From Methylobacterium sp. J-026 (GTDB taxonomy: Bacteria > Pseudomonadota > Alphaproteobacteria > Rhizobiales > Beijerinckiaceae): DNA of 64,000 bases. The translations under genes and the position numbers were made by a program. Shown piece by piece: positions 18,228 through 48,689 of this stretch; within the stretch, counting starts at the first letter, position 1, and each line of letters starts with the position of its first letter. The stretch spans positions 1-64,000 of the forward strand of contig NZ_JAKSYC010000241.1 of the NCBI RefSeq assembly GCF_022829585.1, given 5' to 3'. The notes under the pieces were generated by a model, which saw only the letters and a program-made list of their open reading frames with translations, had not been told where the DNA came from and searched no databases.

Positions 18228-18570
18228 GTCTCCGTAGCTCAGCTGGACAGAGCGCAGGTTTCCTAAACAGGCTCAATTGGGCGTCGCGCCGGGAAACCGC
18301 GCGGCGGATCCGCTCAAAGTCGGGGAAAGCTTCCGGCGCCGGCGCTTCGTCGTCCGGCACCCTGCCGATCCCGAGCCAAGCCCGCGCGGCGCGTCCGCGT
18401 CCCGCGGGAAGGTGTAGAGACTAGACGGGCGGCACCTACCGGCCGGGCGCGAGCCCGGCCCAGGGTGAAGGGATAGTCCAGGCCACGAACGCGGTCCTCG
18501 GGGCGCGGCGGCGAAAGCCGAAGTGGTATGAAACCTGGGGTCGCAGGTTCGAGCCCTGCCGGGGACGCCA
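18228..18570 (+). tRNA. tRNA-Arg(CCU) split by a group I intron
   Basis: Exon 1 is 18228-18264 and exon 2 is 18531-18570; spliced they give a 77-nt tRNA. The acceptor stem GTCTCCG pairs with CGGGGAC (one G-U), the D arm is GCTC/GAGC, the anticodon arm is CAGGT/ACCTG around the loop TTCCTAA with anticodon CCT, and the T arm is GCAGG/CCTGC with TTCGAGC. The discriminator is G and CCA is encoded. The intron interrupts the anticodon loop between U36 and A37. The tRNA reads AGG codons, rare in such genomes, so its maturation depends on splicing. Confidence 0.93.
18265..18530 (+). ncRNA. Self-splicing group I intron (IC3-like) in tRNA-Arg(CCU)
   Basis: The 266-nt insert starts after exon-1 U (18264) and ends with the expected terminal G (18530). 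GGTTTCCT at the end of exon 1 pairs along its full length with the guide GGGAAACC at 18291-18298, leaving the U-G wobble at the 5' splice site. Downstream, GTGTAGAGACTAGACGGG and AAGGGATAGTCCAG correspond to the conserved core strands (P3/P7 region) of tRNA group I introns. There is no homing endonuclease frame. Introns at this position are established for Agrobacterium tRNA-Arg(CCU). Confidence 0.9.
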
Positions 18571-48135: not shown

Positions 48136-48244
48136 CGCGGACCAGACGCGCCCCGGCCGGGGGCCGCCGCCCGGGGACTGCGCGCTTCCCGCAACAGCCT
48201 CGCCGAGAGACTCGCCCTGAGACAGCGACGCGACACGATCGGGC

Positions 48245-48273
48245 TTCAAAACCGGACCGATCCCCTCTATATC
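48245..48273 (+). promoter_or_regulatory. Candidate ssrA promoter
   Basis: TTCAAA at 48245-48250 and TATATC at 48268-48273 are 17 bases apart and point at the ssrA gene; transcription would begin near 48280, just before the hairpin GCCGG/CCGGC. Confidence 0.5.
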
Positions 48274-48279
48274 TTGGGT

Positions 48280-48622
48280 GCCGGTCGCGAGGCCGGCTAT
48301 GGCGATAAACGTTCTTCGCAATAAACCTATCGGACCCGGGGGCGGTACCCGGCGCCTCCACCCGAACCCAGGACATGCTGCCGCAAGGCGCGTGACGGGA
48401 GCCTGGGCTCCGGCGGGGGCGAAGTGAGGATCGACGAGGGCGTAAAGGTTGGACTTTCGCTCGGCATGGTTCCGCCGTTATCGGGCCTCTGCAACAGTTG
48501 CCAACGACAACTTTGCTCCGGTGGCGGTGGCCGCGTAATCGGTCCCCAATATCGATCTGAAGTCCTAGCGGGTAGCACCGCATAGGCGGGGTCCGGAGGC
48601 ACCTGGCACCAAAAGCCTCCAC
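48280..48622 (+). ncRNA. ssrA: Circularly permuted two-piece tmRNA (ssrA)
   Basis: The acceptor piece precedes the coding piece, as in alphaproteobacteria. Acceptor piece: T stem CCGGG/CCCGG (48336-48352), then CGCCTCC (48353-48359), discriminator A and CC. Coding piece: begins GGGGGCG at 48415, which pairs along 7 bp with CGCCTCC, then GAGGATCGACGAGGG as in the D-arm analogue. The tag frame at 48500-48538 reads ANDNFAPVAVAA and stop. AGGTT after the coding 5' end can pair with AACCT before the T stem (helix P2). The third base of CCA appears not to be encoded. The spacer between the pieces (48363-48414) must be removed by processing. A hairpin GGAGGC/GCCTCC (48595-48620) ends the gene. Confidence 0.93.
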
Positions 48623-48689
48623 TTCATTCCTCGGTCCGGCCATCCGCGGCGGGGCGCCGGGCACAGACCGGGCTAGAGCGCGACCGCAG

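Follow-up and report, generated by a model that had tools for sequence, protein, structure and literature searches.

Group I introns in tRNA-Arg(CCU) genes of Alphaproteobacteria have been described before. Such an intron was reportedly described from Agrobacterium by Reinhold-Hurek and Shub in 1992. The group I intron BbgpI of Bartonella, described in the accessible part of PMC7717549, lies in a tRNA-Arg(CCU) gene that had escaped annotation and belongs to a family first identified in Agrobacterium; it is spliced in vivo and self-splices in vitro. Sporadic distribution, horizontal transmission and transposition of this tRNA-Arg(CCU) intron are named in the title of Paquin et al. 1999 (cited in PMC7717549). 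Alpha- and betaproteobacteria are listed as hosts of tRNA group I introns in PMC4033280. Among titles and abstract openings found for Methylobacterium and group I introns, none concerned a tRNA-Arg(CCU) intron. Since the Bartonella/Agrobacterium family has already been described, the intron reported here is a further member of a known alphaproteobacterial family, to which it adds a G+C-rich, well-conserved case.

The window, i.e. the whole stretch of 64,000 nucleotides of Methylobacterium sp. DNA that was analyzed, was searched for tRNA genes with ARAGORN. In intron mode, a tRNA-Arg(CCU) gene was recovered at 18228-18570, with a 266-nt intron between the last base of the anticodon and A37. The insert occupies exactly 18265-18530 and separates U36 from A37, and the joined exons were read by ARAGORN as a normal 77-nt tRNA with an encoded CCA end. 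The predicted position, length and terminal G of the insert were thus confirmed, as was its recovery by a tRNA finder with introns allowed. A terminal G was present in all 51 aligned introns, including base 18530 of the window copy. The gene consists of the following parts:

18228-18264, plus strand: 5' exon of tRNA-Arg(CCU), ending in the anticodon CCU (positions 34-36); ARAGORN intron mode
18265-18530, plus strand: group I intron, 266 nt, terminal G at base 18530; ARAGORN and alignment
18531-18570, plus strand: 3' exon of tRNA-Arg(CCU), CCA encoded; ARAGORN intron mode

In default mode, ARAGORN reported no tRNA at 18228-18570. Because default ARAGORN and Rfam searches miss the intron-bearing gene, a tRNA for AGG seems to be absent from such genomes, which calls for caution in genome annotation. 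A scan of the locus for promoters and terminators gave no plus-strand promoter-like site and no terminator, and one minus-strand promoter-like site. Elsewhere in the window, a permuted alphaproteobacterial tmRNA gene was located at 48241-48623 (RF01849, 269.7 bits; tag ANDNFAPVAVAA).

The secondary structure from P2 to P9 was drawn by hand on the window copy and then scored over an alignment (A1) of 51 introns, 36 from tRNA-Arg and 15 from tRNA-Leu, thinned from 98 distinct sequences; a second alignment (A2) held 46 of these 51. The Leu rows were assigned by their exon pattern, since some of them are called Phe or Ser by ARAGORN. The elements are listed below, with percentages of paired cells and numbers of rows referring to A1:

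18277-18278, plus strand: UU just 5' of the guide; candidate for a P1 extension with the opening bases of the intron, or for P10 with AA in the 3' exon; pairing possibility
18279-18281, plus strand: predicted internal guide GGG, forming P1 with the anticodon CCU; covariation with the exon
18282-18306, plus strand: P2 hairpin; 7 of 7 outer pairs changed on both sides, 88.5% of cells paired; 3 inner pairs 74.5%
18293-18296, plus strand: GAAA loop of P2 (L2), within 18291-18298; alignment
18310-18315, plus strand: P3, 5' strand (partner 18427-18432); 99.3% paired, C-G to U-A in 10 rows
18320-18374, plus strand: P4 (18320-18325 with 18369-18374) around P5 (18329-18365); alignment; P4 100% paired and nearly invariant; basal pair of P5 changed from G-C to C-G in 10 rows, upper part of P5 82.7% paired where letters exist
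18376-18412, plus strand: P6/P6a; 96.5-100% of cells paired
18419-18423, plus strand: P7, 5' strand (partner 18474-18478), the expected guanosine-binding helix; 100% paired, A-U to G-C in 6 rows and U-A to C-G in 1
18427-18432, plus strand: P3, 3' strand; covariation
18433-18467, plus strand: P8; 4 basal pairs 99.5% paired, A-U to G-C in 17 rows
18474-18478, plus strand: P7, 3' strand; covariation
18483-18526, plus strand: P9 region, with hairpin P9.2 (18509-18520) and GAAA loop L9 (18513-18516); 99-100% of cells paired

All pairs drawn in the core of the window copy were standard, and P7 crosses P3 as in a group I core. Over A1, 95.2% of 2568 cells were paired, a score biased in favor of the drawing because this was based on the window's own sequence. 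Changes on both sides were seen at 24 of 54 pairs, lying also in P3, P5, P6a, P7, P8 and P9, and the 146 cells with double changes compare with a shuffle mean of 43.6. On none of five measures did any of 500 shuffles score as high, and pairing fell to 30.5-44.5% in a control with slid partners. Pairing was weakest in the inner part of P2 and the upper part of P5. The covariation over 51 introns supports the predicted group I intron of known class in the anticodon loop, including the folding of P3-P9, failure of which had been named as grounds for rejection.

Two other lines of proof were tried and set aside. Single-sequence folding was uninformative, with energies no lower than those of shuffled sequences (z -0.70 and +0.23). 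The Rfam group I model RF00028, proposed as a check in the original prediction, did not recover the window copy: the window gave no match at E up to 1 or at the model threshold, and the gene alone gave a partial match of 16.7 bits against a cut-off of 50. Homology was therefore argued through relatives. With cmscan, nine of ten related loci gave RF00028 matches, with scores of 26.3-56.9 bits and E-values no higher than 1.3e-3; two exceeded the cut-off of 50. A single alignment such as RF00028 may miss group I diversity, as noted in the accessible part of PMC6125680. One same-genus locus (L045, genome G349) gave no match to this model at E up to 10; its intron has 318 nt, with a P6 region that by eye is expanded and rich in repeats.

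Judged by its architecture, the intron is assigned to subgroup IC3. GAAA loops in L2 and L9 are a trait of this subgroup. The host is a tRNA, P2 is present, and P5 is drawn as one 37-nt hairpin (18329-18365) lacking the P5abc extension; IC3 introns lack P5(a-d) according to the accessible part of PMC11835236. By analogy with self-splicing relatives, self-splicing is expected of the window copy as well. In the transcript, the anticodon CCU at the end of the 5' exon would pair with the intron GGG to form P1, leaving a U-G wobble at the splice site. Free guanosine bound in P7 would attack the 5' splice site, and the released 5' exon would then attack after the terminal G (18530), so that the exons would be joined to a normal 77-nt tRNA, presumably functional. 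The two GAAA loops are predicted to dock. The UU at 18277-18278 may form P10; pairing with AA of the 3' exon is possible in 35 of 36 Arg rows and 10 of 15 Leu rows.

Taken together, the insert is best explained as a group I intron of the alphaproteobacterial tRNA-Arg(CCU) family with GGG as its guide, inherited vertically within the genus; we put the probability of this joint reading at about 97%. The guide assigned here differs from that of the original prediction, which had placed it in the eight bases GGGAAACC (18291-18298). The exon GGTTTCCT is indeed complementary to these bases over its full length, with a U-G at the splice site, and the same complementarity and U-G were found in 30 of 36 Arg rows (29 with GGGAAACC, one with GGGAAACT). 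The eight bases are, however, the GAAA loop of P2 plus two closing bases on each side, in a hairpin whose outer 7 pairs all covary. They are kept in 12 of the 15 Leu introns, the remaining three having GGGAAATC; the Leu exon ends in GACUU and matches only 3-4 of the 8 bases. In 6 of the 36 Arg introns, U-C or U-U would stand at the splice site. In several Arg(CCU) relatives across the class, the exon GGATTCCT breaks the eight-base pairing. A guide of eight bases is thus very improbable and was rejected. The triplet GGG (18279-18281) would instead pair with the anticodon CCU, again with U-G at the 5' splice site. Within A1, all 36 Arg rows combine GGG with exon CCU, and all 15 Leu rows combine GAG with CUU. 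Among 83 introns from the family and the class, 13 host labels were reassigned by reading the anticodon loop, since ARAGORN shifts the splice point. The guide in this set was GGG in all 30 Arg(CCU) hosts, GAG in 34 of 34 Leu, GCC in 5 of 5 Thr(GGU) and GCG in 4 of 4 Thr(CGU). The nine Lys rows fit more loosely (GAG in 4, GGG in 5). With G-U allowed, the guide paired with its own exon at all three places in 80 of 83 introns; 2000 shuffles averaged 50.5 such introns and never exceeded 60. The three exceptions were two Lys(CUU) rows and one unsure Leu row. Four of the six Lys(UUU) rows pair only with a second G-U. For bench work the distinction matters: mutation of the wrong eight bases would hit the P2 loop instead of the guide.

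Retention of an intron presumed to splice was weighed against decay, i.e. an intron that no longer splices, a dead tRNA-Arg(CCU) and reading of AGG by tRNA-Arg(UCU). In an assembly of 99.81% completeness, no tRNA-Arg(CCU) gene other than the intron-bearing one was found. No second copy was present among 43 RF00005 matches, 42 of them named by ARAGORN and one, cut at a contig start, read as CAT by eye; the intron occurs at a single place in the genome, and a pattern search of the genome for an uninterrupted loop gave one match. A tRNA-Arg(UCU) gene lies on the same contig as the intron-bearing gene (G000:C13:75805). Since wobble might let this tRNA decode AGG, the CCU species is perhaps dispensable, and the predicted full dependence of AGG decoding on splicing need not hold. 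The metK gene close downstream of the tRNA gene contains one AGG codon. The presence of tRNA-Arg(UCU) and the poor Rfam score of the window copy would fit decay, but the standard core pairs, the intact tRNA exons and the retention of both tRNA and intron in 44 of 45 sampled genomes of the genus make it hardly credible. The same 44 genomes, which carry the intron at the identical site, bear on its origin. They belong to a family sample of 397 genomes, 45 of them of the genus with the window's own included. The tRNA gene is flanked by a nuclease-like gene upstream and by an XRE regulator gene and metK downstream, and these neighbors recur in most congeners, the upstream gene most often. It was kept in 29 of 30 same-genus loci with flanks (the window's included) and in 64 of 78 named loci partly outside the genus; the corresponding counts for the XRE gene were 17 of 30 and 49 of 78. 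Inheritance within the genus, one of the two origins named in the original prediction, is supported by the common site and the kept neighbors, and transfer elsewhere is likely. Repeated horizontal gain within the genus would be compatible with the patchy distribution across the family, where genus g32 (Microvirga) has members with and without the intron, and with the two clades of class Arg(CCU) introns, which would allow separate acquisitions. It would also accord with the one intron-less congener (G325), in which an uninterrupted tRNA-Arg(CCU) lies upstream of the same XRE and metK genes; this locus is not wholly unchanged, as the 7 kb that were read there showed no trace of the nuclease-like gene that usually stands upstream. 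Given the shared site and flanks, such gain is nevertheless unlikely. In a metK tree of 28 genomes, G325 fell inside the genus and grouped, with support of 96/96, with three genomes that carry the intron. Because of this nesting, vertical inheritance from an intron-bearing common ancestor, with precise loss in G325, would be the simplest account.

The intron's 3' junction pattern also matched Methylorubrum records, among them loci of Methylorubrum populi and M. zatmanii. Outside the genus, tRNA-Arg(CCU) beside the same upstream gene was found without an intron in L401-L404 and with one in L405. Of 148 loci, 131 were parsed; the remaining 17 were L046, L047 and L057 (no intron), L022, L028 and L030 (intron by ARAGORN) and 11 named loci that escaped the parsing pattern. 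The host was tRNA-Arg(CCU) in 66 of the 78 named loci, the other 12 lacking the exact core word used. Of 114 parsed Arg loci, 111 have introns of 212-269 nt and the remaining 3 have introns of 318-386 nt; some genomes are counted twice.

For the wider distribution, a core model (R1) was built from family sequences and applied to class and phylum samples, which overlap, with stricter filters. It matched 47 of the 387 genomes sampled from the class and 43 of the 397 sampled from the phylum. By loop reading, the hosts at 53 class places were tRNA-Leu (19, and one unsure), Arg(CCU) (12, one of them relabeled by this reading), Lys(UUU) (6), Thr(GGU) (5), Thr(CGU) (4) and Lys(CUU) (3); no host was called at 3 places. 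A tree was calculated from the 83 introns, omitting 16 of the 51 A1 rows as near-copies, the duplicates L327 and L328, and L356, L368 and L371, which had no host call. The window copy fell into a clade of 25 rows from several families (100/98), of which 24 were labeled Arg(CCU) and one, labeled HisATG, reads as Arg(CCU). Five other Arg(CCU) rows stood beside a Leu intron (98/93), and the 29 rows labeled Arg(CCU) require 3 changes on this tree, in which the bootstrap had not settled. A second acquisition of the Arg(CCU) intron is likely; it falls short of proof because all five rows have odd base composition and some branches are long.

In the deeper history, the lineage would have moved among tRNA genes, with the guide triplet altered to suit each new anticodon-loop exon. 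Rather tentatively, and at somewhat less than even odds, we suggest one large, mobile population of bacterial tRNA introns that re-targets itself, with the guide tracking the host and with phage tRNA arrays and tRNA-integrating islands that carry intron-bearing tRNA genes as possible vehicles. Its hosts in Pseudomonadota would be tRNA-Arg(CCU), Leu(UAA), Thr(GGU), Thr(CGU), Lys(UUU), Lys(CUU) and Ile(CAU), and probably others. This suggestion is weakened by the looser fit of the Lys guides and by the match to a single isolated phage: when 50,697 phage records were searched by blastn with the window's gene, two gave a match, and both belong to one phage. The guides, matched to the exon of each host, provide a natural series of re-targeted ribozymes, and the broader question of re-targeting and its vehicles is worth more than the window copy alone.

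IC3-like introns in tRNA genes other than Arg and Leu were observed in several Alphaproteobacteria, with hosts assigned partly by loop reading: Thr(CGU) in L360, L364, L369 and L370, Thr(GGU) in L345, L348, L349, L358 and L361, Lys(UUU) in L343, L359, L362 and L365-L367, and Lys(CUU) in L351-L353. We know of no earlier report of tRNA-Thr or tRNA-Lys as hosts of IC3-like introns. Three loci of the same phylum (L437, L439, L440) resemble tRNA-Ile(CAU) and seem to carry the intron ahead of the anticodon, a placement given by ARAGORN in L437 and L440 and read by eye in L439; in L441 and L442, by contrast, the intron follows the anticodon.

Related introns were also noted on phage, viral and plasmid sequences. 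The matched phage was Gordonia phage Daredevil (L316, NC_048021.1, 41865-42076), with an intron in an unannotated tRNA-Lys(UUU) gene about 600 nt from an integrase gene. All phage introns observed up to a 2014 review were in protein genes, according to the accessible part of PMC3984707. The IMG/VR viral contigs gave at least 120 matches, at least 85 of them with a tRNA host by ARAGORN (labels as given). Six contigs (L187, L206, L216, L227, L236, L239) carried IC3 introns of the same core in tRNA genes, mostly among other tRNA genes; tail or lysis families occurred near L187 and L239 and, weakly, L227.

On the plasmid pCTX-M3 (L314, NC_004464.2), a tRNA-Leu(UAA) with an IC3 intron was read at about 1370-1670, where the ARAGORN label was Stop. 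In two enterobacterial plasmid records, the intron-bearing tRNA-Leu(UAA) adjoins aac(3)-IId and a gene for an AAA ATPase; in one of them the tRNA, next to IS26, lacks its 5' part. When a 511-nt segment of L314 was compared with plasmid sequences, 1323 records matched; in 1244 the match spans at least 80% of the segment, and in 1316 the identity over the matched part is at least 99%. As RNA genes are not part of the PLSDB gene table, the lack of a tRNA entry there is uninformative. The L314 locus was 91% identical over 351 nt to one in a same-family genome (G207), which hints at an alphaproteobacterial source of its flank. In that genome, one intron-bearing tRNA-Leu and several partial matches lie within 26 kb (G207:C1:5540910-5566431; L071, L443), with one more on a second contig; these copies are perhaps stacked islands that integrate at tRNA-Leu and carry an intron-bearing tRNA. 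On the Bradyrhizobium elkanii plasmid pUSDA76 (L317), an intron core followed by the 3' half of a tRNA-Leu was seen by eye at about 900-1200, just upstream of a gene for a TrlF-family ATPase; ARAGORN reported no tRNA there.

Among the known systems, the alphaproteobacterial tRNA-Arg(CCU) family is closest, with the same tRNA and group I core. As predicted, the intron belongs, by its position directly after the anticodon of tRNA-Arg(CCU), to the family of the Agrobacterium intron and to no new class, and it may share descent with that intron; the window copy is distinguished by its 266 nt and very high G+C content. The tRNA-Leu(UAA) IC3 introns of proteobacteria and cyanobacteria share the layout from P2 to P9, and those of same-family genomes were 66-80% identical to the window intron over the matched part. 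They are inserted between U34 and A35 (loop reading), two bases earlier than the window intron, and carry the guide GAG instead of GGG. The tRNA-Ile(CAU) introns L441 and L442 of the same phylum, which we take to be of the Azoarcus type of IC3, have a window-like layout with a short guide, a P2 hairpin with a GAAA loop and the core. They are shorter (210 and 212 nt by ARAGORN), and their guide GUG fits the exon CAU by eye. Movement of this family between tRNA genes has already been proposed in the literature; the table of guides and exons, clean for Arg, Leu and two Thr hosts and extended by eye to two Ile introns, may carry this earlier work further.
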